The position numbers were made by a program, and so were the translations under genes. A DNA stretch of 64,000 bases from Phycisphaerae bacterium (GTDB lineage Bacteria; Planctomycetota; Phycisphaerae; JAJVII01): positions 1 to 64,000 of the forward strand of contig JAJVII010000022.1 of NCBI GenBank assembly GCA_022072085.1, written 5' to 3'. Within the stretch, counting starts at the first letter, position 1, and each line of letters starts with the position of its first letter. A model generated the notes under the pieces. The model saw nothing but the letters and a program-made list of their open reading frames with translations, was not told the origin of the DNA and ran no database searches. Positions 13,226 to 61,702 of the stretch are shown in pieces.

Positions 13226-13446
13226 CATCCGCAGATTACGCAGATTGCGCAGAGTCAAGAAGAGAACCGCGAATGGACGCGAATGGACGCGAATGCGAAA
13301 GAGAGAAGGCTTGCGATCTGAACTCTTCATTCGCGTCGATTCGCGTCTATTCGCGGTTCTCCCCTCCTGTCTTTCTGAAAATCTGCGTCATCGGCGTAAT
13401 CTGCGGATGAGTTCTCTTCTCGGTGTCCTCCGTGCCTCCGTGGTGA
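13226..13446 (+). repeat. Long composite palindrome, inverted homologue of 10850 element
   Basis: Begins GCATCCGCAGATTACGCAG, carries AACCGCGAATGGACGCGA, and returns as TTCGCGTCTATTCGCGGTTC and CATCGGCGTAATCTGCGGAT near 13390-13408. The tail TCTCGGTGTCCTCCGTGCC to 13446 is the same half-element as before hypB. The central arm 13297-13322 is an exact inverse of 10939-10964. Confidence 0.75.
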
Positions 13447-38321: not shown

Positions 38322-39632
38322 TCACGCCTCCGGCGGGTCGAAGGCGGCGGCGGCCTCGACGTTGCGGCACTCGGCGGCGATGGCGTGGAAGAGACGCTCC
38401 TCGGCGGCCGTCAGGGTCACCTTGCGGCGGGCCATCACTGTGCGGGCGACTTCCAACCCCTTCTCCACGTCGTAGGCCCGGCGCTCAGTGTCGGTCAGCC
38501 AGCAGAAGCTGGGCACGAACTTGGGCGGGAATGCGTTGCAGACGACGTTGGCGCAGAAGCCCACCACCGACCCGGTCGAAAAACTCGCGTTGATGCTGCT
38601 CTTGGAGTGGTCGCCCATCGTCAGGCCGACGAACTTCTGCCCGCTGTCCACCTCGACGCCGTTGATCGGCACGCGGACCGGCCCGTAGGTGTTCTTCAGG
38701 TCGCTGTTGATCGAGTCGGCGGCGATGTTGATCCAGGCGCCCAGCACCGCGTGGCCGAGGAAGCCGTCGTGCTGCTTGTTGGAGTAGCCCCAGATGACCG
38801 ACTCCTCGACCTCGCCGCCGACCTTGCAGACCGGCCCGATGGTCGTGCCCTCGTGGATGCAGGCGCCGGGCTGAATGAGCGTGCCGTGGCAGATGGCGAC
38901 GGGCCCCTGGATGGTGCAGTTGGGCGAAATCGTCACGCCGTCGCCGATCCAGATCGGGCCCTTCTCGGCGTCCAGCACGGTGCAGGGCTTGACGACCGAG
39001 CCCTTGCCGACGTGGATGCTCCCGGGTTCCAGCAGGTAGGCCCCGTCGTAGACGCGGCCCTCGATGGCCGGCCGCCCGCCCGCGGCGATCGCCGCGTTCC
39101 AGTCCAGCATCATCTGCTCATGGTTGTGGCGGACGATGTCCCAGGGGTAGTCGATCATCGAGCCCGGGGCCTCCTCGCGGCGGCCGATCCTGGAGGCCCA
39201 GGCTTCGGCGTCGGGGGCGTCGCCGGCCAGCAGCATGTCGGGGTCCAACGCCCGGGCCGACTGGGCCGACAGCCTCAGCCAGGCGACCTGCCCGCCGCAG
39301 ACGCCGACGGCTGGCGGGCCCGCAACGGCCGGTCGACTGGCGATGTCGCCGCCGAAGAGGTAGCGGGCGTTGACCAGCAGGACGGAGGCAGCCGACGCGG
39401 GCACGGGGACGTTCACGTGGGCGTCGGAATTGCGTTCGGCGACGACGTCCGCCAGCATGTCGCGGACCCAGAGGTAGACCGGCTCGGGTCCGCCGGGCTC
39501 AGCCGGGGCGGCGAAGTGCTTGCGGAGCAGGCGGCGGCGTCCGCAGCGAAGTTCGCCCACGCTGCGCCACCAGACCAGCGGCAGAAGGTTGCGGAAGCCG
39601 GCGTCTTCAAACAGGATGCGGACGGCGTGCAT
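38322..39632 (-). CDS. Alternative GlmU-type sugar-phosphate nucleotidyltransferase
   Basis: A 436-residue protein matching the TIGR03991-type alternative GlmU of bacteria with atypical cell walls. Its start LFEDAGFRNLLPLVWWRSVG replaces the normal GlmU pyrophosphorylase signature, and the second half is a left-handed beta helix (GSIHVGKGSVVKPCTVLDAE, GDGVTISPNCTIQG, GTTIGPVCKVGGE, NSDLKNTYGPVRV). It probably makes UDP-GlcNAc or a related nucleotide sugar from the phosphate. Convergent with the lipoprotein upstream, only 11 nt apart. Confidence 0.85.
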   Translation of the reverse strand: MHAVRILFEDAGFRNLLPLVWWRSVGELRCGRRRLLRKHFAAPAEPGGPEPVYLWVRDMLADVVAERNSDAHVNVPVPASAASVLLVNARYLFGGDIASRPAVAGPPAVGVCGGQVAWLRLSAQSARALDPDMLLAGDAPDAEAWASRIGRREEAPGSMIDYPWDIVRHNHEQMMLDWNAAIAAGGRPAIEGRVYDGAYLLEPGSIHVGKGSVVKPCTVLDAEKGPIWIGDGVTISPNCTIQGPVAICHGTLIQPGACIHEGTTIGPVCKVGGEVEESVIWGYSNKQHDGFLGHAVLGAWINIAADSINSDLKNTYGPVRVPINGVEVDSGQKFVGLTMGDHSKSSINASFSTGSVVGFCANVVCNAFPPKFVPSFCWLTDTERRAYDVEKGLEVARTVMARRKVTLTAAEERLFHAIAAECRNVEAAAAFDPPEA

Positions 39633-39725: not shown

Positions 39726-39759
39726 GGAAAAGGCCCGCACGCCGGAGCGCACGGGCCTT
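39726..39759 (-). terminator. Terminator-like hairpin, minus-strand reading
   Basis: AAGGCCCG and CGGGCCTT (39730-39737 / 39752-39759) with an inner CGC/GCG stem; on the minus strand it is followed by TTTTCC. It lies immediately downstream of the structured RNA if that RNA is on the minus strand, and upstream of the minus-strand GlmU gene. Confidence 0.45.
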
Positions 39760-39763
39760 GGAC

Positions 39764-39973
39764 TAAAAAGCCAAGGTTGAAGCCTCCACCGCAATGCCGT
39801 GAGGAAAGTTTTGATTGAACCCTTTATATCACGTGGGCGGTCAGTCGGCCGGGCTTGGCGTCCTCGCAGGGAGGCATGCCGGCGTGCGGCCGATAGAGGG
39901 TGCCCCGGGTTCAGTTATCGGTTCGAATCAAAAGAATCCTAGCACGAACATGGCAGAGACCCTTGGCTTTTTA
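39764..39973. ncRNA. Candidate rod-shaped structured RNA, about 210 nt
   Basis: The first and last 13 nt are perfect complements (TAAAAAGCCAAGG at 39764-39776 and CCTTGGCTTTTTA at 39961-39973). Inside, further pairings fall in nested order: TGCC 39795/GGCA 39952, GTG 39799/CAC 39943, AGGA 39802/TCCT 39937, TTTTGAT 39809/ATCAAAA 39927, TGAACCC 39816/GGGTTCA 39907 with a 13-nt one-sided bulge, GGGC 39835/GCCC 39902, TCGGCCG 39845/CGGCCGA 39887 and a small terminal hairpin. No protein frame is plausible. The overall rod with a closing stem and asymmetric bulge recalls 6S RNA, but no conserved 6S sequence is recognised. Strand is ambiguous. It lies in a 676-nt gene-free gap (39633-40308). Confidence 0.5.
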
Positions 39974-40197
39974 ATTGCGAAAGAGCGTGAATCGAAGCTC
40001 GGACCTGCTCACTACTTCATCCTAGCATTCAGATTATCGTCAAGCAAGCGGGGGTGACTTGAGAAACGGCGCAGATTCGCGTTAATCTTTGTTTGCACAA
40101 CGTCGGCAGGGGGGGTGAGGCGGCGCATTTCACAGGCTCGGGCCGCCGCCGGGCGGGGGCGGCCCGCCCGACAGGCAGCCGACAGGCCATCTATGTC

Positions 40198-42937: not shown

Positions 42938-43010
42938 GGGTAGGTAGCTCAGTTGGTAGAGCACGGCACTGAAAATGCCGGTGTCGCCGGTTCAAATCCG
43001 GCCCTGCCCA
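42938..43010 (+). tRNA. tRNA-Phe (GAA)
   Basis: Cloverleaf of 73 nt: acceptor GGGTAGG/CCTGCCC (one G-T pair), D arm GCTC/GAGC with AGTTGGTA loop, anticodon stem CGGCA/TGCCG with loop CTGAAAA (anticodon GAA), T arm GCCGG TTCAAAT CCGGC and discriminator A. CCA is not encoded. Flanked by a promoter and a hairpin, with a recombinase remnant beyond it. Confidence 0.97.
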
Positions 43011-43547: not shown

Positions 43548-45836
43548 ATGTCCGGGAAGGACTCCAAGCCGCGGATAGGTGACAATGCCGCACCGGCAGG
43601 ACTCGGCCAGCCAACTCGCCAGTTGGCTCATCGCTGCCCACGCGACTCCCATTGGCTCGAGCATCCGCTGGACGCGCACTTGCAGGCCGTGGGGCAGTTG
43701 GCAGCTGATTACGCTGAGGCCTTCGGCGCCGCCGACTGGGGCCGGCTGGCGGGCCTGTGGCACGATGTCGGCAAGTACAGCCAGGCGTTCCAATCCTATC
43801 TTCTGCGCGTCACCGACGGCGGCGCCCATCTGGAGGGCCAACCGGGCCGGGTGGATCACTCCTCAGCCGGCGCCGTCCAGGCGATCAGGCGGCTTGCCGA
43901 TTCCAACCCTGCCGCAGCCCGGATACTGGCATATGTCATCGCTGGCCATCACGCCGGCTTGGCTGACTGGAAGACGAGCAGCGATGCCAGCCTGTTCTAC
44001 CGACTGGCCGCCGAGAAATCTTCGACCCTGGACGCGTTGGCCCGCGCCCCTGCCGAACTGCTCGGGCAAGCCGCTCCGGCCATGCCCGCCCTCCAGCCAG
44101 CCGACGCTGAGGCCGAGATCGGTTTCCAGGCCGCGTTCTTCACGCGTATGATCTTTTCGTGCCTGGCCGACGCGGACTTTCTCGATACCGAGGCTTTCAT
44201 GGACCCCGCCAGAGCCGTGGGTCGAACCGTCCCGGCTGCCATCGCGTCCATGAAGGACGCCCTCAGGAGACACCTGGAACACATGCAGGCACGAGCGGAC
44301 CGGTCCCCGGTCAACGACCGGCGGCGGGAGATCCTTTCGGCCTGCCTTGCAGCCGCTGCAAAGGCGCCGGGGTTCTTCTCGCTCACGGTTCCCACCGGTG
44401 GCGGCAAGACGCTCTCGTCCCTTGCATTCGCATTGGAGCATGCGTCCCGACGCGGACTCGAACGCGTCGTCTATGCCATTCCGTTCACGAGCATCATCGA
44501 GCAGAACGCCGCCGTGTTCCGCGAGGCGCTGGGCGAACTGGCAGGCGTGTCGCTCATCGAGCATCACTGCAACCTTGACCCGGTTCGGGAGACGGCATGG
44601 AACCGCCTGGCCTGCGAGAACTGGGACGCCCGCCTGATCGTCACCACGAACGTGCAGTTCTTCGAGTCGCTGTTGGCCAACCGAACGTCCGCCTGCCGCA
44701 AGCTTCACAATCTGGCCCGCAGCGTCATCATCATGGACGAGGCCCAGTCGCTGCCGGTGGAACTGCTGGCGCCCTGCCTGGCAGTGCTCCGCGAACTGGT
44801 CCGCAACTACGGCTGCTCGGTCGTGCTGTGCACCGCCACCCAGCCGGCCATCCACCACCGCGAGGACTTCAAGATCGGCCTGGCAGGGGTGCGGGAAATC
44901 GTGGCGGATCCGCGCCAACTCTACGAGTCGATGCGGCGGGTTCGTGTCGAGCACGCCGGCAAACTGGATGACGGGGAGTTGATCGGCTGCCTGTCGAAGG
45001 CAGACCAGGTTCTCTGTGTAGTGAACACGCGAAAGCAGGCCCGCGAGGTCTACGCCGGCCTGCCCGATGACGGCGGATCATTCCATCTCAGCACGTTGAT
45101 GTGTCCCGTTCACCGGACACACATACTTCAGCAGGTGCGACGCCGATTGGAAGAAGGCCTGCCCTGCCGGCTGGTTTCCACACAACTGATCGAGGCCGGC
45201 GTGGACATCGACTTCCCCGTCGTCTATCGCGCAATGGCCGGGCTGGACTCAATCGCCCAGGCGGCCGGCCGGTGCAATCGCGAGGGGCGACTGGACTGCG
45301 GCCGGGTCGTCGCGTTCGATACCGACCAGCCGCCCCCGCCCGGACATCTGCGCCAGTCGGCCCAGACGGCAGGCGAACTGATCGGCCTGCCAGGCTGCCA
45401 GGACTTGCTCGGGCTGGAAGCCATTGAACGGTATTTCCGTCTCTACTACTGGAAGCGTCAGGACCTGTGGGACAAACATCAGATCATGGCCTGCTTCAGG
45501 CAATCCAACGGCCTGCCGATCAGCGACTTTCACGAGGCGGCTCGGCTGTTCCGCTTCATCAAGGACGACACGACGCCGATCATCATCCCCTGGGGACATC
45601 AAGGGCGGTCACTGGTCGAGGAACTGCGCGGCGATCCGTTCCCGGGCCGCGATTTGCGCCGGCGGCTCCAGCGGTTCACCGTCCAAGTTCGCGACAGGCA
45701 CATCGAGTGGCTCCAGTCCCGCGGGGCGCTGGACCCGGTTCACGATCAATTCCACATTCTCAACAAGGAAAATCTCTACGCCGGTGACACAGGGCTGTCA
45801 CTGGCGGGTGATATGTATGAGCTCAATACCGCCTGA
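43548..45836 (+). CDS. cas3: Cas3 nuclease-helicase, type I-C
   Basis: A 762-residue single-chain Cas3 that degrades target DNA after Cascade binding. N-terminal HD nuclease: HPLDAHLQAVG, LAGLWHDVGKYSQAF (His-Asp near residue 72) and VIAGHHAGLADW. Helicase: TVPTGGGKTLSSLAFAL (Walker A from about 283), FTSIIEQNAAV, SVIIMDEAQSLPVELL (motif II as DEAQ), VLCTATQPA, CRLVSTQLIEAGVDIDFP and AGLDSIAQAAGRCNREGRLD. All key residues seem present. Start ATG 43548 chosen by frame and by GGGGGCGACGC upstream; no strong Shine-Dalgarno. First gene of the cas operon, 27 nt before cas5. Confidence 0.97.
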   Translation: MSGKDSKPRIGDNAAPAGLGQPTRQLAHRCPRDSHWLEHPLDAHLQAVGQLAADYAEAFGAADWGRLAGLWHDVGKYSQAFQSYLLRVTDGGAHLEGQPGRVDHSSAGAVQAIRRLADSNPAAARILAYVIAGHHAGLADWKTSSDASLFYRLAAEKSSTLDALARAPAELLGQAAPAMPALQPADAEAEIGFQAAFFTRMIFSCLADADFLDTEAFMDPARAVGRTVPAAIASMKDALRRHLEHMQARADRSPVNDRRREILSACLAAAAKAPGFFSLTVPTGGGKTLSSLAFALEHASRRGLERVVYAIPFTSIIEQNAAVFREALGELAGVSLIEHHCNLDPVRETAWNRLACENWDARLIVTTNVQFFESLLANRTSACRKLHNLARSVIIMDEAQSLPVELLAPCLAVLRELVRNYGCSVVLCTATQPAIHHREDFKIGLAGVREIVADPRQLYESMRRVRVEHAGKLDDGELIGCLSKADQVLCVVNTRKQAREVYAGLPDDGGSFHLSTLMCPVHRTHILQQVRRRLEEGLPCRLVSTQLIEAGVDIDFPVVYRAMAGLDSIAQAAGRCNREGRLDCGRVVAFDTDQPPPPGHLRQSAQTAGELIGLPGCQDLLGLEAIERYFRLYYWKRQDLWDKHQIMACFRQSNGLPISDFHEAARLFRFIKDDTTPIIIPWGHQGRSLVEELRGDPFPGRDLRRRLQRFTVQVRDRHIEWLQSRGALDPVHDQFHILNKENLYAGDTGLSLAGDMYELNTA

Positions 45837-45863
45837 TGACCCGATCGCAACGGGAGGCTCGTC

Positions 45864-46580
45864 ATGCCAAGTCCGATCCGGTTGAAAGTCTGGGGCGACT
45901 ACGCCTGCTTCACACGGCCGGAGATGAAGGTCGAGCGGGTGAGCTACGACGTGATCACGCCGTCGGCTGCCCGCGGCGTCCTCGAAGCCGTCTACTGGAA
46001 GCCGCAGGTGCGGTGGATCGTCGAACGGCTGCACGTGCTGCGGCCGATCCGCTTCACCAGCGTGCGGCGGAACGAGGTGGCCCACAAGGCGTCAGCCGCC
46101 AACGCCAGGAAGGCGATGAACGCCGGCGCCGGCACGCTGGGCCTGTTCATCGAGGACGAGCGGCAGCAGCGGGCGGCCATGATCCTGCGCGACGTGGCCT
46201 ACGTCATCGAGGCCCGGTTTGAACTGCTCGACCCGGCTGAGACGGTCGAGAAGCACTACAACATTTTCAAGCGTCGGGCCGAGCGCGGCCAGTGCTTCCA
46301 CCGTCCCTATCTCGGCTGCCGGGAGTTCCCCGCCGACTTCGCCTGGATCGACGGGCCGATCCCGCCCAGCGAGCTGCCCTCCGACCAGCGCGGCAAGGAC
46401 CTCGGCTGGATGCTGCACGACATCGAGTACCTTCCCGCCCCCAAGGGGGCGAAGGAGGTGGTGGTCGAATCGCACGGCGGCAAGCGGCTCCAGGCCCAGC
46501 CGCGATTCTTCCAGGCCAGGATCGACGCCGACGGCGTCATCGCCGTCCCGCCGCTGGCCAGCCCGGAGGTGCGGTCATGA
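45864..46580 (+). CDS. cas5c: Cas5c (Cas5d), crRNA-processing endonuclease
   Basis: A 238-residue I-C Cas5, which replaces Cas6 and cuts the repeat hairpin to give crRNAs with an 11-nt 5' handle. Seen: RLKVWGDYACFTRPEMKVER at the N terminus, AARGVLEAVYWKPQVRW (tyrosine of the catalytic set), IRFTSVRRNEVAHKA and VEKHYNIFKRRAERGQCFHR (Lys-His of the catalytic set). The substrate hairpin is visible in the array repeats downstream. Start ATG 45864 after GGGAGG. Its stop overlaps the cas8c start (ATGA). Confidence 0.96.
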   Translation: MPSPIRLKVWGDYACFTRPEMKVERVSYDVITPSAARGVLEAVYWKPQVRWIVERLHVLRPIRFTSVRRNEVAHKASAANARKAMNAGAGTLGLFIEDERQQRAAMILRDVAYVIEARFELLDPAETVEKHYNIFKRRAERGQCFHRPYLGCREFPADFAWIDGPIPPSELPSDQRGKDLGWMLHDIEYLPAPKGAKEVVVESHGGKRLQAQPRFFQARIDADGVIAVPPLASPEVRS

Positions 46581-48388
46581 TCCTCCAGGCCCTGAACACC
46601 TACTACGAACGCCTGGCCGCCGACCCCGATTCCGACATCGCCCCGTTCGGCTTCAGCCGCCAGAAGATCAGTTTCTGCGTGGTCCTGGAACCGGACGGCC
46701 GCCTGCACGGATTCGAGCAGGTTGTCTCGGAGGTCGTCAACGGCCGCCCGATTCCCAAGAGCGAAATCGTCCCCGGCCAGAACAAGCCCCCCGGCGCGGG
46801 CATCAATCCATGTTTCCTCTGGGACAACGCCACCTACATGCTCGGCCGAGTCCCCGAGGGGCGAGAGCCTGCCTGGGCGCAGAACAGGTTCGAGGCCTTC
46901 CGCGATCGCCACCTGGCCGCGGAAGCCGAGATCGACGACGAGGCGTTCTCGGCGGCCTGCCGGTTCCTGGAGCAGTGGAGCCAGCCGCAACTCGACGAAC
47001 ACCCGGAACTGGCGGACGTGGTCCAGAGTTTCGGCCTGTTCCGCATCCGCGGAGAGAAGTTCGTCCACGACCGTCCGGCTGTGCAGGCCTGGTGGCTGCG
47101 GCAGATCGACGCCGGCGCTGACGACGTTATCTCCGGCATGTGCCTGGTCAGCGGGAAGACCGAACCGCTGGCCCGGCTGCACGAGCCGAAAATCAAGAAC
47201 GTTCAGGACGCGCAGACCTCCGGCGCCTCGCTGGTCGCCTTCAACCTCGACGCCTTCGAGTCTCACGGCAAGGCCCAGAGCTACAACGCCCCCGTTTCGG
47301 AGAATGCCGCCTTCCAGTATGCCACGGCCCTGAACCGCCTGTTGGGCGACCGCCGGCGGCGAATCCAGATCGGCGACGCGACCACCGTCTTCTGGACTGA
47401 CAAGCCGTCGAGGGCCGAGCAGATCGTTCCGTCGCTGTTCGCGGGCGGCCACGCACAGGCGGACGACCCCGAGGACGGCGATCGGCTGGAGAGCATCCGG
47501 GCCTTCCTGGACCGCCTGCGCCAGGGCAAACCCGATGCCGCCTGCGAGGCGCTGGGCGATCCGGGCACGACCTACTACATCCTCGGCCTGTCGCCAAACG
47601 CAGCCCGCGTCAGCGTCCGTTTCTGGCTGACCGGCAGCCTGGGGGAACTCGCAAGACGATTGGCCCTGCACGTCGAAGCCATCGAGATCGTCGGCTTGGA
47701 CGAGCACCCGCCAATTCTGCGCGACCTGCTTCGCGAGACCGCCCCAGCCAAGAGCGGCTGGCCCGACGAGGAGAAGATTCCAAAACCGTTGGAAACAGGC
47801 CTGGCCCACGCCGTCCTGAAAGGCCTGCCCTACCCGCTGGCCTTCTATTCGAGCATCCTGCGGCGGATCGCCGCCGAGCAGTTCGTCGACCATGAGAAAC
47901 GAAAAGACTGGCGGCGCGCCATGTCCGTCCGCGCCGCCGCCATCAAGGCTGTCCTCATCCGAAACTTCCGAAAGGAGATCACCGTGGCACTGGACCCCGA
48001 CCGCACCGAACCGGCCTACCGCCTCGGGCGATGGTTCGCCCTGCTGGAAATGATCCAGCGGGACGCCCTCGGCAGAGACCTCAACAAGACCATCAAGGAC
48101 CGCTTCTACACCGCCGCGTCCGCCACCCCGGCCGTCGTCTTCCCCAGGCTGATCCAACTCAGCCAGCATCACTTGGCCAAGATCGAGAACCCCCGCTGGC
48201 GAATCACCCGCGAGAAGCAGGTGCAGGAAGTGGCCGACGGCCTGAACAGCTTCCCGCGCCGCCTCACGCTCGAAAACCAGGGTCTGTTCCACCTCGGCTA
48301 CTACCATCAGGTCCAGGCCCTCTACACCAAGAAGGACGCGCAGGATTCCGCAGACGCCGACAGCACCCCTCAACCCGAAAGCGAGTGA
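46577..48388 (+). CDS. cas8c: Cas8c (Csd1), Cascade large subunit
   Basis: A 603-residue Csd1-family protein, the large subunit of I-C Cascade that recognises the PAM and recruits Cas3. Typical segments: MILQALNTYYERLAADPDSD, FGFSRQKISFCVVLEPDG, CFLWDNATYMLGRV, AFQYATALNRLL near the middle and FYTAASATPAVVFPRLIQLS near the end. Start ATG 46577 overlaps the cas5c stop; the longer frame is wrong. In I-C an internal start in the cas8c message can give Cas11c; a candidate is not resolved here. Confidence 0.95.
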   Translation: MILQALNTYYERLAADPDSDIAPFGFSRQKISFCVVLEPDGRLHGFEQVVSEVVNGRPIPKSEIVPGQNKPPGAGINPCFLWDNATYMLGRVPEGREPAWAQNRFEAFRDRHLAAEAEIDDEAFSAACRFLEQWSQPQLDEHPELADVVQSFGLFRIRGEKFVHDRPAVQAWWLRQIDAGADDVISGMCLVSGKTEPLARLHEPKIKNVQDAQTSGASLVAFNLDAFESHGKAQSYNAPVSENAAFQYATALNRLLGDRRRRIQIGDATTVFWTDKPSRAEQIVPSLFAGGHAQADDPEDGDRLESIRAFLDRLRQGKPDAACEALGDPGTTYYILGLSPNAARVSVRFWLTGSLGELARRLALHVEAIEIVGLDEHPPILRDLLRETAPAKSGWPDEEKIPKPLETGLAHAVLKGLPYPLAFYSSILRRIAAEQFVDHEKRKDWRRAMSVRAAAIKAVLIRNFRKEITVALDPDRTEPAYRLGRWFALLEMIQRDALGRDLNKTIKDRFYTAASATPAVVFPRLIQLSQHHLAKIENPRWRITREKQVQEVADGLNSFPRRLTLENQGLFHLGYYHQVQALYTKKDAQDSADADSTPQPESE

Positions 48389-48391
48389 ACC

Positions 48392-49276
48392 ATGAACCGT
48401 TATGACTTCGTCTATTTCTTCGACGTGACCGACGGCAACCCCAACGGCGACCCCGACGCCGGCAACCTGCCGCGCGTGGACCCCGAAACCGGCCAGGGCC
48501 TGGTCACCGACGTCTGCCTCAAACGCAAGATCCGCAACTTCGTCGGCGTCGTCCACGGCGAGCAGCCGCCCCACGAAATTTACGTCAAGGAGCGGGCCGT
48601 CCTCAATGCCCAGCATGATCGGGCCTGGCAGGTTGTCTCACCCGACACCAAGCCGGCCGACCGCAAGAAACTGCCCAAGGACCTCCAAAAAGCTCGCGAT
48701 CTGACCGCCTGGATGTGCAAGAACTTCTTCGACATCCGCGCCTTCGGCGCCGTGATGAGCACAACCGTCAATTGTGGGCAAGTTCGAGGCCCTGTCCAGT
48801 TCAGTTTCGCCCGAAGCCTTGAACCTATCATCTCTTCCGAACATGCCATCACCCGCTGCGCTGTGACGCGCCAAGAGGATTTTGACAAAGAAGACAAAGA
48901 CCGGGAAATGGGGAGAAAGTTCACAATCCCCTACGCCCTCTACCGCGTCCACGGGTTCATCAACCCGTTCCTGGCTGACGGCGAGAAGGGGACCGGGTTT
49001 TCCGACGACGACCTGACGCTGCTCAAGACGGCCCTGAACCAGATGTTCGAGTACGACCGGTCAGCCGCCCGAGGCCAGATGGCCCCGCGCGTCTGCGTCG
49101 CCTTCAAGCATGACTCCCAGCTCGGCAACGCCCGGGCCGACCAGCTCTTCGACCGCGTCACCTGCAAACGCAAGACCGCCGACGACGACTCCCCCGCCCG
49201 CAACTTCGGCGACTACGAAATCGCCGTTGACGAAAAGGGCCTGCCCGAGGGCGTCACGGTCGAGCATTGGGTGTGA
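48392..49276 (+). CDS. cas7: Cas7c (Csd2), Cascade backbone
   Basis: A 294-residue Csd2-family protein that forms the crRNA-binding filament. Seen: [86 protein letters not shown] and [18 protein letters not shown]. Normal length, three nt after cas8c. Confidence 0.97.
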
Positions 49277-49300
49277 CGACGGCGCGACCGCGGGGGCGTC

Positions 49301-50017
49301 ATGTTCGCCGAGGACGATCTGCTTCCGATCTCCGCGCTTCAGCACCTGCTGTTCTGCCCGCGGCAGTGCGCGCTGATCCACCTGGAGCAGGTCTGGGCCG
49401 AGAACCAGCTCACCGCCCAGGGCCGCGTGCTGCACGAGCGGGCCCATGCCCCCGGGCCCGAGTCGCGCGGCAACCGCCGCATCATCCGCGGCCTGCGACT
49501 CCGCAGTTTCACCCTCGGCCTGACTGGGCAGGCCGACGTCGTCGAGCTTCGCCGGCCGACCGGCCGAGTCCCGCCCGGCGAACGGACCCGCCTGCACGAC
49601 CTGCCCGGCGAGTGGCTCGTGCGGCCGGTCGAGTACAAGCGCGGGCGGCCGAAGCAGAACGACTGCGACCGCGTGCAACTCTGCGCCCAGGCCCTCTGCC
49701 TGGAAGAGATGATGGCCGTCCGCATCTCCGTCGGGGCGATCTTCTATGCCCAGCCGCGACGACGGCAGGTCGTCCCGTTCGATGAGCCGCTCCGCCGCGA
49801 GACACAGGAGTCGGCTGAGCGGCTGCACACATTGATGGCCGCGGGCGCCACGCCGCCGGCCGAATACGCCGCCCGCAAGTGCCGCGCCTGCTCCCTGATC
49901 GACCAGTGCATGCCGAAGTCGGCTGGGCGTTCGAGATCGGCCCGCGACTACCTGGACCGCCAACTCAAGCAGGCCTCCGCCTCGCTCGGCCCGGAGAGTT
50001 CGGATGAAGCGACGTGA
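49301..50017 (+). CDS. cas4: Cas4 exonuclease (adaptation)
   Basis: A 238-residue RecB-family nuclease that trims prespacers and selects their PAM side. The [4Fe-4S] ligands are LLFCPRQCAL near residue 20 and KCRACSLIDQCMP near the end (four cysteines). The nuclease motifs GQADVVEL, RPVEYKRGRPKQND and RVQLCAQALCLEEM (Asp, Glu-x-Lys and Gln) are intact. Overlaps cas1 by 14 nt; 24 nt after cas7. Confidence 0.95.
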   Translation: MFAEDDLLPISALQHLLFCPRQCALIHLEQVWAENQLTAQGRVLHERAHAPGPESRGNRRIIRGLRLRSFTLGLTGQADVVELRRPTGRVPPGERTRLHDLPGEWLVRPVEYKRGRPKQNDCDRVQLCAQALCLEEMMAVRISVGAIFYAQPRRRQVVPFDEPLRRETQESAERLHTLMAAGATPPAEYAARKCRACSLIDQCMPKSAGRSRSARDYLDRQLKQASASLGPESSDEAT

Positions 50018-51029
50018 CAACACGCTCTACGTGACCACGCAGGGCTCTTACCTCGCCCGTCAACGCGAAACGCTCCTGGTCCGCGTGGATAAGGAGACCC
50101 GCCGGCAGTTCCCCATCCACACCCTCGGCGCCGTCGTCTGCTTTGGCAACGTCTCCTTCAGCCCCTTCGCCCTGGGCCTGTGCAGCCAGAACGGCGTCGC
50201 GGTCTCCTTCCTCTCCGAGCAGGGCCGGTTCCTCGGCCGGCTGGAGGGCCCGGTCGGCGGCAACGTCCTGCTTCGCAAGGCGCAGTACTGGTCGTCGGAA
50301 TCGCTTGAGGCGTCGGCCCTGATCGCCCGCGCCATCGTGCTGGCCAAGGTCGCCAACGCCCGGACCGTCCTGCTCCGCGCTGTCCGCGACGGGGCCCACA
50401 ACGAGGAGGCTATCAACCGCGCCACCGGCCGCCTGGCCGAGACGCTCCACGGCCTGCAATCGCAGTTCGATCTCGACGCTATCCGCGGCGCCGAAGGCGA
50501 AGCGGCCAAGGACTACTTCGCCGTCTTCAACGACCTGATCGTCACCTCCGATCCGCAGATGCAGTTCAAAGGCCGATCGCGACGGCCGCCGATGGACCCG
50601 GTCAATGCCATGATGTCGTTCCTCTCCGTCCTTCTGGCCCACGACGTGCGGTCGGCCTGCGAGACCGTCGGGCTCGATCCGCAGATGGGCTTTCTCCACC
50701 GCGATCGGCCAGGCCGGGCGAGCCTGGCCCTGGACCTGATGGAGGAGTTGCGTCCCGTGCTGGTCGATCGGCTGGTGCTGTCGCTGATCAATCGCCGGCA
50801 GGTCGCACCCACGGGCTTTCGCGTGACCGAGTCCGGCGGTGTGGAAATGGACGAGAAGACCCGCAAGGCACTTCTCCAGGCCTGGCAGAAACGCAAGGCC
50901 GACGAACTGACCCACCCGTTCGTCGGCGAGAAGATGACGTTCGGTCTCTTGGTGCACGTCCAGGCCCGGCTCCTGGCCCGTCACCTGCGCGGCGACCTGG
51001 ACGCATACCCCGCATTCTTCTGGCGGTGA
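50004..51029 (+). CDS. cas1: Cas1 integrase, type I-C
   Basis: A 341-residue Cas1 endonuclease-integrase. Seen: TQGSYLARQRETLLVRVDKE, GAVVCFGNVSFSPFALGLC, GVAVSFLSEQGRFLGRLEGP and the catalytic set GAEGEAAKDYF (Glu), MGFLHRDRPGRASLALDLME (His, Asp) with EELRPVLVDRLVLSLINRR. Overlaps cas4, with which it would form a Cas4-Cas1 complex; 13 nt before cas2. Nothing missing. Confidence 0.97.
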   Translation: MKRRDNTLYVTTQGSYLARQRETLLVRVDKETRRQFPIHTLGAVVCFGNVSFSPFALGLCSQNGVAVSFLSEQGRFLGRLEGPVGGNVLLRKAQYWSSESLEASALIARAIVLAKVANARTVLLRAVRDGAHNEEAINRATGRLAETLHGLQSQFDLDAIRGAEGEAAKDYFAVFNDLIVTSDPQMQFKGRSRRPPMDPVNAMMSFLSVLLAHDVRSACETVGLDPQMGFLHRDRPGRASLALDLMEELRPVLVDRLVLSLINRRQVAPTGFRVTESGGVEMDEKTRKALLQAWQKRKADELTHPFVGEKMTFGLLVHVQARLLARHLRGDLDAYPAFFWR

Positions 51030-51585: not shown

Positions 51586-54500
51586 ATCGCCCCCCACGCG
51601 GGGGCGCGGATTGAAACAGCACGTCGACGACACCCTGAACAACTACGGCCTGATCGCCCCCCACGCGGGGGCGCGGATTGAAACGGCCACCGGCCACCGC
51701 GTCGGCAACGCCATCACATCGCCCCCCACGCGGGGGCGCGGATTGAAACGTATCCAACGTCCTGCCCAGCCTGGGCACCGACATCGCCCCCCACGCGGGG
51801 GCGCGGATTGAAACTCCAGGGCAACGACGCCGACCCCAGCCCCTTCGCATCGCCCCCCACGCGGGGGCGCGGATTGAAACTTTCGGCATTGGCCTTGTCG
51901 GCCTCAGCCTTGGCCATCGCCCCCCACGCGGGGGCGCGGATTGAAACGCAGGTCCATCTCCGCCCCATAGGTGAGCTGGCCGGGATCGCCCCCCACGCGG
52001 GGGCGCGGATTGAAACGACGGACTGAATACGTCGGACCGGGCGTGCCGTGATCGCCCCCCACGCGGGGGCGCGGATTGAAACAGCGAGCAGGCGACAAAT
52101 TGGCCGACGGTTCAGGATCGCCCCCCACGCGGGGGCGCGGATTGAAACAACCGTCGCGATCACGCCTTGCTCCGTTCGCCGGGATCGCCCCCCACGCGGG
52201 GGCGCGGATTGAAACGCCCCTGGCGAGTTAGGTTTAGGTCGGCTTTGGTGATCGCCCCCCACGCGGGGGCGCGGATTGAAACGCCACTTCCTTGTCGGGC
52301 TGCGGAGTCCCAGACGATCGCCCCCCACGCGGGGGCGCGGATTGAAACCAGGCCCCCGAGGGCCTGCTGCCCGGCGTGCGGATCGCCCCCCACGCGGGGG
52401 CGCGGATTGAAACGCTCATCTCGCATCATCCTTTCGCGGCCGTCACGATCGCCCCCCACGCGGGGGCGCGGATTGAAACCTCGAGCCCGGAGACGCGTGC
52501 CTGCAGGGCCGCACATCGCCCCCCACGCGGGGGCGCGGATTGAAACTGGTGGGCCTCGGCGATCACGTCGGCCCCAGCGACATCGCCCCCCACGCGGGGG
52601 CGCGGATTGAAACTCGTAAGTCTCGCGGTCGATGACGGTCTGGCCGATCGCCCCCCACGCGGGGGCGCGGATTGAAACGAGAACTGGGCCACGGGCAGCA
52701 ACGCGTCGGCGAATCGCCCCCCACGCGGGGGCGCGGATTGAAACATAGCGTTACCTGCGTAGCGGCCTGCGTCCCGAAATCGCCCCCCACGCGGGGGCGC
52801 GGATTGAAACGCCGGGCTGGGCGGCGAGGCGGCGGTGCGGCTGATCATCGCCCCCCACGCGGGGGCGCGGATTGAAACCACGAGGTCAAGGCCCGCGTGC
52901 CGATCGACGGCCAATCGCCCCCCACGCGGGGGCGCGGATTGAAACGCAGGGGGCCAAGACCGGGGCGGCAACGAACCACGGATCGCCCCCCACGCGGGGG
53001 CGCGGATTGAAACCGGCGGCCACGACCCCCGGCAGCAGTGCGACCAGATCGCCCCCCACGCGGGGGCGCGGATTGAAACGGCCACGGGCGTCAACACCGG
53101 ATGGGCTGCGGGCATCGCCCCCCACGCGGGGGCGCGGATTGAAACCAGCCCAGCAGCTGGGGCACCAGGCCCGACTTGGCATCGCCCCCCACGCGGGGGC
53201 GCGGATTGAAACGGGCTGCGGACGGTGTTCAACGCCGAGGGCAAGCATCGCCCCCCACGCGGGGGCGCGGATTGAAACGCGTCGCGCGGCCAGGCCCGCG
53301 AGTTCGGCCTGAATCGCCCCCCACGCGGGGGCGCGGATTGAAACGGGTTCGCGGCCGAGGAGCGGCGGTGGTCTGAGAATCGCCCCCCACGCGGGGGCGC
53401 GGATTGAAACACCGCAGACTGCGCCGATCAGCATGACCTCAAGATCGCCCCCCACGCGGGGGCGCGGATTGAAACGTAGAGCCAGGTCGTATCGCTCATG
53501 TCGAGCTCGATCGCCCCCCACGCGGGGGCGCGGATTGAAACACCCCGGCGATGCCCTGGGCTACCAGCAGCCGGTATCGCCCCCCACGCGGGGGCGCGGA
53601 TTGAAACCTCGATCCGATCGTCCTGACCGCCGACGACTCGAATCGCCCCCCACGCGGGGGCGCGGATTGAAACATCGTATCGACCACAACGTTGTTCACC
53701 GGGAACCCGATCGCCCCCCACGCGGGGGCGCGGATTGAAACTTCAAGCATGGGGCTACCCTTGACGGCATCCTCCATATCGCCCCCCACGCGGGGGCGCG
53801 GATTGAAACAGCCACAGCGTCCCATCATCCCGCAGCACGCGCCATCGCCCCCCACGCGGGGGCGCGGATTGAAACCTCCCACAACCCCTCGTTGGTCGGG
53901 AAGGCGTAGATCGCCCCCCACGCGGGGGCGCGGATTGAAACGATGCAGCGGCAGTGGAACGGGTAGACCGTCTGGATCGCCCCCCACGCGGGGGCGCGGA
54001 TTGAAACACGATCTCGCTCCTCAATAGCTTCCGTGCCGGGATATCGCCCCCCACGCGGGGGCGCGGATTGAAACCTCACGCCCGAGCTGCTGCGGGTGCT
54101 GGCGCCCGGATCGCCCCCCACGCGGGGGCGCGGATTGAAACACTCCGCCGCCGCGGCGGCGGCTTCCTTTGCCGCATCGCCCCCCACGCGGGGGCGCGGA
54201 TTGAAACATCAGGTCCTGGCGGGAGCCAAAGGTGTAGCTGCATCGCCCCCCACGCGGGGGCGCGGATTGAAACGCCAGCGTCGTCCGCAGGCGGTCCAGG
54301 GCAAGCGATCGCCCCCCACGCGGGGGCGCGGATTGAAACGGCTACGTGCCATTTCACGGCTCCTTCGTATGAATCGCCCCCCACGCGGGGGCGCGGATTG
54401 AAACTCCTCCTGCCTCCTGTGCCGGGTGGTCGGGATGAATCGCCCCCCACGCGGGGGCGCGGATTGAAACGCGTTGCCCGCCGTGTACGATCCGGCCAAT

Positions 54501-57500
54501 ACCTGATCGCCCCCCACGCGGGGGCGCGGATTGAAACTCGTTGGCGCCGCTGGCGCCCTTGACGTGCAGCATCGCCCCCCACGCGGGGGCGCGGATTGAA
54601 ACAGCGCCCTGCTGGCCGACCCGTCCAAGGTGCGGCTGATCGCCCCCCACGCGGGGGCGCGGATTGAAACACGTGCTGCGGGGCGATCGGACGGATGCGG
54701 CTGAATCGCCCCCCACGCGGGGGCGCGGATTGAAACGTCAGCCACAAGACGGCAGCCGTGCGAGACCTGAATCGCCCCCCACGCGGGGGCGCGGATTGAA
54801 ACAGGCCGCGGCCGACTCGCTGGGCGTCTCGTTTGATCGCCCCCCACGCGGGGGCGCGGATTGAAACTACTGGCCATTACGCGGCCCTCCGGTTGGTCTG
54901 GATCGCCCCCCACGCGGGGGCGCGGATTGAAACTTGCCGACGCGGCCCAGCAGCGGCAGGGGCGGGTATCGCCCCCCACGCGGGGGCGCGGATTGAAACT
55001 TGCGCCGCTGCCAGTCGCTGACGGTCTGCACGAATCGCCCCCCACGCGGGGGCGCGGATTGAAACAGGGCGTCCAGGTCGGTGGTCAGGCGGCGGAGCTG
55101 GGATCGCCCCCCACGCGGGGGCGCGGATTGAAACTCGCCCTGGCGGTAGCGCACGCGGACCGGCTTGATCGCCCCCCACGCGGGGGCGCGGATTGAAACT
55201 TCGTTCCTCCGCAGCTCTCGACCGACGTGATCGAATCGCCCCCCACGCGGGGGCGCGGATTGAAACCGCCCCCGCGCGCCGCCGTGGCCGCGCCGGGGCA
55301 TCGCCCCCCACGCGGGGGCGCGGATTGAAACAAGAACGGGCAGCGCGTCTGGCGGGCGATGGAGCGATCGCCCCCCACGCGGGGGCGCGGATTGAAACCT
55401 CCAGGCTCTTCCGCTGGTCGGCGACCGCCTCGAATCGCCCCCCACGCGGGGGCGCGGATTGAAACCGCAAGCAAGCCGGGCAACTGGGCGTCGGCGACGA
55501 TCGCCCCCCACGCGGGGGCGCGGATTGAAACCGCCAGGTCGATGACGACCTGCTGCGCGGCCATCGGATCGCCCCCCACGCGGGGGCGCGGATTGAAACG
55601 ACGCTCACGCGGGGGCTCCTTGCCGCGTGGGCGGATCGCCCCCCACGCGGGGGCGCGGATTGAAACTGGAACAGCACGTGGTCGGAGAAGTCGATGCGGA
55701 ATCGCCCCCCACGCGGGGGCGCGGATTGAAACCCGTATCACGTCTCGCGCCTCATCTTTCACAGCAGATCGCCCCCCACGCGGGGGCGCGGATTGAAACG
55801 AGCTGGGCCAGACGATCGCCAGCGACGGCCTGCATCGCCCCCCACGCGGGGGCGCGGATTGAAACTCGTCGCGCTTGGCCTGGTCCACGGCCATCAGCGA
55901 TCGCCCCCCACGCGGGGGCGCGGATTGAAACTCGACGCTGCGACCGTGGCGGTTCTGGAGCGACTCATCGCCCCCCACGCGGGGGCGCGGATTGAAACTA
56001 ACCTTTTGGGGGCGTCACGACTTGCGCCGCAGATCGCCCCCCACGCGGGGGCGCGGATTGAAACCTACTTGGTCTTTCCGCCGGTCTGCTGCCTGTCGGA
56101 TCGCCCCCCACGCGGGGGCGCGGATTGAAACATGTGGTTGCCGACCCAGTGGCGATCGGCGTCCATCGCCCCCCACGCGGGGGCGCGGATTGAAACGCCA
56201 ATGGCCGGTCAATCCGCGGGCGGCTGCGATGATCGCCCCCCACGCGGGGGCGCGGATTGAAACGCCTTCCGCCACGGCGTCCTGCGCTACGGCCTGATCG
56301 CCCCCCACGCGGGGGCGCGGATTGAAACGAGATCGGGTCGGCCCGCCTGATGTATCCGCGCGAATCGCCCCCCACGCGGGGGCGCGGATTGAAACAACCG
56401 GCTTCGGCTCGCACGGGTCAGCAGTCGACATCGCCCCCCACGCGGGGGCGCGGATTGAAACTTGTTGGGTCTGCTGGATTTGGCGGATGCGATCAATCGC
56501 CCCCCACGCGGGGGCGCGGATTGAAACCGTATCGACCGCTCGCGACCCGCACTGTCTGCACATCGCCCCCCACGCGGGGGCGCGGATTGAAACCGGGTGG
56601 TCGCATGAGCAACAACGCCGTCACAACCATCGCCCCCCACGCGGGGGCGCGGATTGAAACACGAGCCGTCCGACATCCCCGGCCTGGCCGAGAAATCGCC
56701 CCCCACGCGGGGGCGCGGATTGAAACCTCGCCCACCGCTCGAACAGGTCCCGCGTCACGGCATCGCCCCCCACGCGGGGGCGCGGATTGAAACATGTATT
56801 ACCTGCCCGGCACGGGGGCCGTCACGCATCGCCCCCCACGCGGGGGCGCGGATTGAAACGCGGCGACAGCGACCTGCCGCCGCTGATCGACCATCGCCCC
56901 CCACGCGGGGGCGCGGATTGAAACGCGCTGACGGGCCGGCCGCTCGCCGTCACGCCGCGCATCGCCCCCCACGCGGGGGCGCGGATTGAAACGCGTAGAT
57001 TTCCGTCGTCTTGAGCGTCGCGTGGCAAATCGCCCCCCACGCGGGGGCGCGGATTGAAACTGGTTGTGGTCGAGCCGATCCGTCATGTCGACTGATCGCC
57101 CCCCACGCGGGGGCGCGGATTGAAACAACCGCTTCTGCTTCAGGACGTCACAAGCCGCCCGGATCGCCCCCCACGCGGGGGCGCGGATTGAAACAAGCCC
57201 AAGCGGATGCACTGGCTGGGCGTCCAGGATCGCCCCCCACGCGGGGGCGCGGATTGAAACTTTTCCATCGACCCTATTGACGGCGGGCCGGCGGGATCGC
57301 CCCCCACGCGGGGGCGCGGATTGAAACTCCAACGGCGGAGTCTGCTGGCGCCGCGCGACACATCGCCCCCCACGCGGGGGCGCGGATTGAAACCCGAGCG
57401 GCTGGTGCTGGCGTTGCGGGCGGACGGGATCGCCCCCCACGCGGGGGCGCGGATTGAAACGCCTCCCCCGTCCACGCCACCGCTGCCGTCCCCATCGCCC

Positions 57501-60500
57501 CCCACGCGGGGGCGCGGATTGAAACCTTTATCGCCGCCACTAACCGGCGGCAGGACAGGGATCGCCCCCCACGCGGGGGCGCGGATTGAAACCCTAGCCA
57601 TAGCTATTATGATGCAAAGGCGTGGGATCGCCCCCCACGCGGGGGCGCGGATTGAAACCCCACCTAACCCCTTGTCCTCCAAGAATGGCGGCGATCGCCC
57701 CCCACGCGGGGGCGCGGATTGAAACAAGACCGTCCGGGTTGACGGCAAGCTCAAACGCAATCGCCCCCCACGCGGGGGCGCGGATTGAAACCCTTGCTGA
57801 ACGGGGCGGAAGTCTTGAGCACGCCAATCGCCCCCCACGCGGGGGCGCGGATTGAAACCCGCGCGGGACGACGAGGCGCGGGCGCGGTTCCTATCGCCCC
57901 CCACGCGGGGGCGCGGATTGAAACCTGGGCCGCACGCTGAATACCCGGCTGGACACGAATCGCCCCCCACGCGGGGGCGCGGATTGAAACACCGGATGAT
58001 GATCCGGGTCGACGGCCGCGAGGAATCGCCCCCCACGCGGGGGCGCGGATTGAAACGCTGCTGGCCGAAGTGATCGGGCGTGGACGCGCATCGCCCCCCA
58101 CGCGGGGGCGCGGATTGAAACCACGCGCCCGCCACCCACTGGGCCACCTGGAGGGCATCGCCCCCCACGCGGGGGCGCGGATTGAAACAACGGATCGGGC
58201 GACTTGAAGTTTGTGAAGTCGAATCGCCCCCCACGCGGGGGCGCGGATTGAAACGAACAACTGCACGTGCACCCGCAGAACGGCCCCCATCGCCCCCCAC
58301 GCGGGGGCGCGGATTGAAACTTCAGAGCAGCCCCGGGCCGGGACGCCAGGCGTCATCGCCCCCCACGCGGGGGCGCGGATTGAAACAGCAAACCCCGGCG
58401 GGCGACCTCCATCGCCCGCCATCGCCCCCCACGCGGGGGCGCGGATTGAAACTCGACTCCGCCGGCGTCCATCCAGCCGCCCGCCTATCGCCCCCCACGC
58501 GGGGGCGCGGATTGAAACAAGAGCATGAACGACGACCTGGTCGGGGCCTGGCGGATCGCCCCCCACGCGGGGGCGCGGATTGAAACCGCGTGCGGGTGAC
58601 CGGCACGGTCCGCAAGGGCGATCGCCCCCCACGCGGGGGCGCGGATTGAAACACACGCGGGCGCTGACTGGGCCGGCAGAGACCGCATCGCCCCCCACGC
58701 GGGGGCGCGGATTGAAACCAGCTCCTTCCGGCTTGGCCCCGCTCTGCCCCAATCGCCCCCCACGCGGGGGCGCGGATTGAAACACTTGCGGCCTCCCTTC
58801 ATTTCCTTCGGAGCGGAATCGCCCCCCACGCGGGGGCGCGGATTGAAACTTGATCCGCCCCTCGGCAACCAGCGGGCCCATCGCATCGCCCCCCACGCGG
58901 GGGCGCGGATTGAAACTCTAGACGCGCAGCGGGCCCTCGTCCAGGCTGCGAAATCGCCCCCCACGCGGGGGCGCGGATTGAAACTGGAGGCGGCCTTAAC
59001 GGTAGCATCGACGGTAGCATCGCCCCCCACGCGGGGGCGCGGATTGAAACAAATCGAGGAGAGGCAATGACCACGATCGAGATCATCGCCCCCCACGCGG
59101 GGGCGCGGATTGAAACGACGTCCAGTCTCCGGGCGATGCGGCCGGGCTGATCGCCCCCCACGCGGGGGCGCGGATTGAAACCCGGTCGGCGAGCAGCGGG
59201 CCGACGGCAGCTACGCATCGCCCCCCACGCGGGGGCGCGGATTGAAACATCCATCGCGATCCGGTTGGTCCGATAGAACTCCGATCGCCCCCCACGCGGG
59301 GGCGCGGATTGAAACCTGGGCGGTCGAAAACGAACTGGTCGATGAGTATCGCCCCCCACGCGGGGGCGCGGATTGAAACATGTGACGGGCTCGCTTGCGT
59401 TGGGTGCGGGGAAATCGCCCCCCACGCGGGGGCGCGGATTGAAACGCCCCGTTGTAGCTCATCAGCGTGTTGGGCCCGGCATCGCCCCCCACGCGGGGGC
59501 GCGGATTGAAACATCAAGGGCAACGCGCCGGCCGCCCTGGGCGGCGTATCGCCCCCCACGCGGGGGCGCGGATTGAAACGCGCTGGGCAGCTCCGGCCGG
59601 GTCGACGGCCTGGTATCGCCCCCCACGCGGGGGCGCGGATTGAAACGTTTCGGTCTATGGCGATCGAGTATATTTACTGCGATCGCCCCCCACGCGGGGG
59701 CGCGGATTGAAACACCGGATGATGATCCGGGTCGACGGCCGCGAGGAGATCGCCCCCCACGCGGGGGCGCGGATTGAAACCAGAAGAAATAGGCCGGATG
59801 TGGTCCGGCGTGAATCGCCCCCCACGCGGGGGCGCGGATTGAAACGGCTTCACGCAACGCCACCCGGCCACGACACGAAATCGCCCCCCACGCGGGGGCG
59901 CGGATTGAAACAGCGCCGCCGCGTCGGGGACCGCCCGGCAGATGCCATCGCCCCCCACGCGGGGGCGCGGATTGAAACCCGTTCACTTTCATAAGGAGCC
60001 GTGAAATGTCCGAATCGCCCCCCACGCGGGGGCGCGGATTGAAACTACACGGCCACGCAGAACAGTACCCGGTTGAAGTAATCGCCCCCCACGCGGGGGC
60101 GCGGATTGAAACTCGCTCGCCCGCGCCTTGCTGAAATCCTCGCCGTATCGCCCCCCACGCGGGGGCGCGGATTGAAACTCGTTCGCGGAGCCAGAGTCGG
60201 CCGAGGAAGGCGATCGCCCCCCACGCGGGGGCGCGGATTGAAACAGTGCTCTCCCCCCTTGCACACCCACGGCTGCACATCGCCCCCCACGCGGGGGCGC
60301 GGATTGAAACCAGAAGCTCCGTCGGAACTTTCCCGTGAAATCGGATCGCCCCCCACGCGGGGGCGCGGATTGAAACAATGCTAAGATCGCGTCCTGAATA
60401 CGGTCGCTAACATCGCCCCCCACGCGGGGGCGCGGATTGAAACGCCGAAGTCGCCAACCTGCACCGAAAGCCACTTATATCGCCCCCCACGCGGGGGCGC

Positions 60501-61702
60501 GGATTGAAACACCGCCGAGGCGCCAAGAGCGCCAAGGCGGAATATCGCCCCCCACGCGGGGGCGCGGATTGAAACCGCTGGAAATACGGCCGCATGATCC
60601 GCCGCGGGGATCGCCCCCCACGCGGGGGCGCGGATTGAAACTCCAACCGCGCTTCGAGTTGAGCGAACCGCTTGGCATCGCCCCCCACGCGGGGGCGCGG
60701 ATTGAAACGCCGTTGCTGAGGGTCGCGTAGGGCCGGATCCAGGCGATCGCCCCCCACGCGGGGGCGCGGATTGAAACAACGGTATCGACCTGCCCATCGC
60801 GGTAATCGGCATCGCCCCCCACGCGGGGGCGCGGATTGAAACCTGAATGAGCGAACACTCATCCCGGCTTACGAGATCGCCCCCCACGCGGGGGCGCGGA
60901 TTGAAACGTCGGGATCGCGGATCGAGAGCTCGGCCCATCGGTCATCGCCCCCCACGCGGGGGCGCGGATTGAAACGGGTTGATGAGGCCCATCGCGAGAT
61001 CGACCCGGATCGCCCCCCACGCGGGGGCGCGGATTGAAACTGGCAGGACACGCTGGGACCGCTGCTGGACCGCATATCGCCCCCCACGCGGGGGCGCGGA
61101 TTGAAACGGATCCCGGCCGACCGCTCGCTGCGCGAGAGCCTGATCGCCCCCCACGCGGGGGCGCGGATTGAAACAGCTTGCTGGCCCGCCCCAACAGCCG
61201 CCAGACCTATCGCCCCCCACGCGGGGGCGCGGATTGAAACAAGGCCAACCCGGTCTTCATGGCCGGCCACATGCATCGCCCCCCACGCGGGGGCGCGGAT
61301 TGAAACGGCGTGACCGGCGTGCTCAGCCACGCCAGCACGGCATCGCCCCCCACGCGGGGGCGCGGATTGAAACGAGATGGAGGCCTCGCTGGTCGAGCCC
61401 CACGAGATCGCCCCCCACGCGGGGGCGCGGATTGAAACGCCTGGAGATGCTGGCTCGCCCGCTCGCCGCGCATCGCCCCCCACGCGGGGGCGCGGATTGA
61501 AACAGCGACCAGACCGACAAGGCCGGCGACCCGGTGCTGATCGCCCCCCACGCGGGGGCGCGGATTGAAACTGACCGAGTTGCGGACGCTGACCGGCTAC
61601 GGGCTATCGCCCCCCACGCGGGGGCGCGGATTGAAACGGCGTGGAGCGTCGCGTCCGGCGTGGTGACGACATCGCCCCCCACGCGGGGGCGCGGATTGAA
61701 AC
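51586..61702 (+). CRISPR. Type I-C CRISPR array, 153 repeats, 152 spacers
   Basis: A 32-nt repeat beginning ATCGCC and ending GGATTGAAAC, with the I-C hairpin CGCCCCC/GGGGGCG around loop CACGC and an 11-nt expected crRNA handle CGGATTGAAAC. Counting starts by hand gave 153 repeats, first at 51586 and last at 61671. Repeat-to-repeat distances range from 64 to 69 nt, so spacers are about 32-37 nt, mean 34. I saw no variant repeat by eye, including the last. Spacers are coding-like. In the minus strand the repeat has no stop in any frame, so long false proteins appear there. Confidence 0.98.

Follow-up and report, generated by a model that had tools for sequence, protein, structure and literature searches.

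A rod-shaped RNA element of a Phycisphaerae-type planctomycete and its assignment to the 6S RNA (SsrS) family

At positions 39764–39973 of the window (the whole stretch of DNA analysed here, 64 000 nt in length) lies a region of extended self-complementarity. The locus raises the question of whether this region is an RNA gene and, if so, on which strand and of which kind. An earlier note described it as a rod of about 210 nt built from nested blocks, 6S-like in architecture and not in sequence, and offered a divergent 6S RNA or an undescribed RNA as its identity. The complementary blocks are confirmed. The 210 nt fold as one rod on the plus strand at −92.4 kcal/mol (z −4.86) and on the minus strand at −87.3 kcal/mol (z −5.16), and in both cases the fold beats all 200 dinucleotide shuffles. 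Since a long inverted structure folds on either strand, folding alone cannot tell the strand of the gene.

Family, strand and parts of the element

The rod-shaped element is almost certainly a single-copy gene for the 6S RNA (SsrS) of a Phycisphaerae-type planctomycete, encoded on the minus strand. When the whole 64-kb window was scanned with all 4227 Rfam families, only two matches exceeded the curated cut-offs, one to a tRNA at another place and one to 6S RNA (RF00013). The 6S match runs on the minus strand from 39962 to 39779, covers the whole model (positions 1–187) and scores 57.1 bits (cmscan of the window, E 1e-8), against a curated gathering cut-off of 46.4 bits. The Infernal and Rfam comparison proposed in the earlier note thus returns a full-model match above cut-off. 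A search of the whole genome found a single 6S copy, the element at 39779–39962. On the plus strand, a separate lax scan of a 401-bp region gave nothing credible, with no Rfam family near its cut-off.

Of the description in the earlier note, the 6S-like architecture therefore stands and the unlikeness in sequence does not, as the minus strand passes the Rfam gathering score and carries the conserved motifs. The sequence looked unfamiliar because the opposite strand was read. Similarly, the 6S half of the proposed identity holds, and with a full-model RF00013 match the undescribed RNA is not needed. The gene is new as an individual annotation; its kind is already known. Its parts, and those of the locus downstream, are as follows.

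39779–39962, minus strand: 6S RNA (SsrS) core as in Rfam RF00013 (cmscan; 42 of 50 ungapped consensus pairs standard)
39944–39961, minus strand: closing stem, 5' strand, GGUCUCUGCCAUGUUCGU (Rfam consensus pairs; covariation)
39781–39800, minus strand: closing stem, 3' strand, ACGGCAUUGCGGUGGAGGCU (Rfam consensus pairs; covariation)
39920–39930, minus strand: stem beside the central bubble, 5' strand, UGAUUCGAACC, also the predicted pRNA template (Rfam alignment; own-versus-mixed pairing test)
39812–39821, minus strand: stem beside the central bubble, 3' strand, GGUUCAAUCA (Rfam alignment; pairing test; covariation)
39906–39919, minus strand: central bubble, 5' side, with the predicted pRNA start opposite U at 39917 (RF00013 alignment; conserved ACCGAU)
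39822–39834, minus strand: central bubble, 3' side (Rfam alignment)
39835–39905, minus strand: apical (internal) arm and terminal loop (minus-strand fold; Rfam alignment)
39961–39973, minus strand: 13-bp outer extension of the closing stem, 5' strand (sequence; mostly outside the Rfam model)
39764–39776, minus strand: 13-bp outer extension of the closing stem, 3' strand (sequence; mostly outside the Rfam model)
39730–39759, minus strand: likely intrinsic terminator of the 6S gene, a 13-bp hairpin followed by UUUUCC (fold; similar position in class homologues)
38322–39632, minus strand: GlmU-like sugar nucleotidyltransferase, the next gene downstream (Pfam NTP_transf_4, PF13562, and hexapeptide repeats)

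The rod architecture described for 6S RNA, about 200 nt long with a closing stem, a central bubble and an apical stem, is present (PMC8876501). On the minus strand its landmarks are legible as the closing stem CUCUGCCAUGUUCGU/ACGGCAUUGCGGUGGAG, the bubble-flanking stem GAACC/GGGUUC, the ACCGAU context of the pRNA start and the apical arm. The element thereby shares with the 6S RNAs gathered in RF00013 (amongst them those of E. coli, B. subtilis, Caulobacter and cyanobacteria) its length, the UGUUCG motif in the closing stem, the central bubble, the stem beside the bubble, the start context, the apical arm and a whole-model score above cut-off. It differs in a diverged apical arm and an extra 13-bp outer stem. 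The eight consensus pairs that are non-standard in the window sequence, out of the 50 with letters on both sides, lie nearly all in the apical arm, which only partly fits the Rfam consensus.

On the 5' side of the bubble, the conserved ACCGAU aligns with the start context of the E. coli pRNA, at E. coli U44. By analogy, the pRNA is predicted to start at 39917, to begin 5'-AUCGGUUCGAAUC and to read 5'-AUCGGUUCGAAUCAAAAG. Data related to the E. coli start context are available (PMC8876501). As for a −10-like element on the opposite, 3' side, 33 homologues showed no excess of TATAAT-like words over shuffles, and a strict sequence match may or may not be expected there.

The perfect 13-bp closing stem claimed for the element exists: TAAAAAGCCAAGG (39764–39776) and CCTTGGCTTTTTA (39961–39973) are exact reverse complements. 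By itself it is not beyond chance and was set aside as a mark of significance, about 0.65 such stems being expected per 64 kb at the same spacing under a first-order Markov null. It is the fold as a whole, together with the family match, that speaks for the element, and not this stem, which lies outside the Rfam model except for its innermost two positions. Of 45 loci, 5 have an outer extension of at least eight uninterrupted pairs, where mixing of flanks would predict 1.4. The stem is thus a non-conserved extension, rare in homologues, and may be a precursor end.

Covariation and distribution amongst planctomycetes

According to the earlier note, a lack of covariation in homologues would speak against the element; covariation is present. 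From 24 homologues with 15-nt flanks, RNAalifold recovered the 6S closing stem, with compensatory changes, although no structure was supplied. Counts were made on this RNAalifold alignment with the bubble-side stem added, giving 25 pairs; a MAFFT alignment of the exact hits, in which the 3' strand of the closing stem was misplaced in several rows, was left out of them. Paired cells amount to 91.8%, against 81.7% in shuffles and 41–47% when slid. Two-sided changes affect 17 of the 25 pairs, and 10 of the 17 counted in the closing stem. The covariation score is 0.383, compared with a shuffle mean of 0.191 (0 of 500 shuffles match it) and with 0.06–0.13 when slid.

The bubble-side stem was aligned poorly by MAFFT and was assessed with an alignment-free comparison of own and mixed pairings. 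The 5' block of each RNA pairs better with its own 3' region than with 3' regions from other species (mean 14.3 against 11.1, permutation p 1e-4; n=43, some anchors being imperfect). In L033 and L039, for example, GATCC/GGATC replaces GAACC/GGTTC. The ACCGAU context is kept across homologues, in alignment with the family.

The pair table of the 24 homologues also bears on the strand. On the minus strand about 95 of the 551 paired cells (~17%) are G-U, and one U-G pair is invariant in 24 of 24. These cells would be A-C mismatches on the plus strand; the structure under selection is therefore that of the minus-strand RNA.

Amongst 61 relatives, 28 have an RF00013 match, which passes the cut-off in 18 of them; in a sample of 294 genomes from the phylum the corresponding numbers are 130 and 82. 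This patchy distribution, about 44% of the sample at the search sensitivity used, mixes true absence with weak detection. It is compatible with a published account that reports no 6S RNA from Thermogutta and cites its absence from Pirellula and Rhodopirellula (PMC5673643). In G001, the only genome of the same family compared (87% complete, 720 contigs), there was no credible 6S match (best E 4.2), and a DNA-level search gave chance matches only. The upstream neighbour of its GlmU-like gene differs from that in the window. At 87% completeness, loss and an assembly gap are indistinguishable in this genome.

Probable terminator, upstream region and neighbouring genes

The terminator-like hairpin reported at 39730–39759 is confirmed, with 13 bp, −26.6 kcal/mol and z −4.95. 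Read on the minus strand, it comes shortly after the 3' end of the RNA and is followed by TTTTCC. In many class homologues a G+C-rich hairpin and a T-run lie at a similar distance 3' of the RNA; in other members of the phylum the closing stem leads directly into a T-run.

On the minus strand, the sequence close upstream of the window's 6S gene gave no convincing match to a sigma70-type promoter in a consensus scan. TATAAT-like boxes are present upstream of 6S in several class relatives. By eye only, a TAGGAT box was seen at 40024–40019, like boxes upstream of some class homologues; as a promoter, it would mean a leader of about 40–50 nt. In addition, a CGATA word occurs 6–10 nt upstream of a TATAAT- or TAGGAT-like box, upstream of 6S, in L005, L007, L008, L010 and L012. 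The window counterpart of this word and box is CGATAATCTGAATGCTAGGAT (minus strand, 40039–40019).

A 6S RNA followed by a GlmU-like gene on the same strand is found in five class members, the window and the relatives L011, L018, L020 and L025. The linkage is recurrent, not general. The nearest named relative of the window's GlmU-like protein comes from a Phycisphaerae genome (STB_87, 61% identity). In many proteobacteria, in contrast, the adjacent gene is that for 5-formyltetrahydrofolate cyclo-ligase (PMC9130861).

Elsewhere in the window, a type I-C CRISPR-Cas operon identified with PADLOC models (43548–51029, plus strand) encodes Cas3, Cas5c, Cas8c, Cas7c, Cas4c and Cas1c in that order, and lies shortly downstream of a tRNA-Phe gene (42938–43010). 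A very long CRISPR array occupies 51586–61702 (plus strand); in it the 32-nt repeat ATCGCCCCCCACGCGGGGGCGCGGATTGAAAC occurs 153 times, always without a mismatch, at a spacing of ~66 nt. A perfect 16-bp inverted repeat, with arms about 150 bp apart, is located at 13226–13409.

Alternative readings and possible role

A rod-shaped RNA of undescribed kind, encoded on the plus strand, would fold about equally well (z −4.86), as long inverted structures do on both strands anyway. However, no Rfam family comes near its cut-off on that strand, the G-U pairs, including the invariant one, turn into mismatches there, and both the terminator hairpin and the next gene lie 3' of the RNA when the minus strand is read. 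This makes a plus-strand RNA extremely improbable. There is a negligible chance that the element is a tmRNA, an RNase P RNA or a leader of the GlmU-like gene. The words GGTTCGAATC and GAGGAAAG, which the earlier note had linked to the first two, are present, and the likeness to those RNAs consists of such short shared words only. ARAGORN, which looks for the tRNA-like domain and the tag reading frame, reports only the tRNA-Phe, and Rfam gives no tmRNA match; RNase P RNA likewise has no match to Rfam models in scans of the window and the 401-bp region. The misfit to both classes that the earlier note had claimed is thus borne out. On the plus strand GGTTCGAATC belongs to the predicted pRNA, which is complementary to the 6S template strand, and resembles a tRNA T-arm only by coincidence; GAGGAAAG (39801–39808) is antisense to an unpaired stretch adjoining the closing stem. 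Both words are incidental, and neither points to tmRNA or RNase P. A leader would agree with the position of the element upstream of the GlmU-like gene on the same strand, but the terminator-like hairpin stands between the RNA and the gene, and most homologous loci have another neighbour. The RF00013 match contradicts all three of these readings.

It is also very unlikely that the element is a 6S-derived RNA with a changed partner or function, or a decayed copy. One such partner would be core polymerase, as for Ms1 in actinobacteria, an RNA structurally related to 6S RNA that binds RNA polymerase, namely the core enzyme and not the holoenzyme (PMC9130861). The divergent apical arm and the patchy detection across the phylum are in keeping with such a change. 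Against it, the bubble-flanking stem and the pRNA-start context are conserved and covarying, and the genome holds a single intact copy. Ms1 itself had no match in the scan with all Rfam families, a weak negative, since the range of that model is limited to species near the mycobacteria (PMC9130861).

A 6S RNA thus remains the preferred identity. The gene, its strand, structure, conservation and single copy are established directly here, as is a gene for the primary sigma factor in the host genome (RpoD; TIGR02393, 364.6 bits, above cut-off; G000, contig C28). Polymerase binding, pRNA synthesis and a growth-phase role of the planctomycete 6S RNA would be those of studied 6S RNAs, from which they are carried over. 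Promoter mimicry, holoenzyme occupation and release by pRNA are established for the E. coli and B. subtilis 6S RNAs (PMC8876501). On that model, the RNA would fold as a rod whose central bubble imitates an open promoter, and would occupy the holoenzyme of RNA polymerase and the housekeeping sigma factor. As growth slows, occupation of the holoenzyme would lower transcription from sigma70-type promoters. On the return of nutrients, the polymerase would copy the 5' side of the bubble into a short pRNA, the synthesis of which would remodel the 6S RNA and so release the polymerase.

The diverged apical arm, the sometimes extended outer helix, the recurrent GlmU-like link and the apparent absence from about half of genomes could mark planctomycete 6S RNAs as a distinct, little-studied branch, possibly reflecting a regulatory difference. 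This is a speculative and rather improbable reading; if true, the pattern could mean end processing or coupling to envelope-sugar synthesis. A practical lesson is that both strands of a rod should be read before its sequence is judged unfamiliar. The element, a conserved regulatory RNA from a phylum that is poorly studied, now has an assigned strand, ends and identity, and 6S RNA is detectable in many genomes of that phylum.
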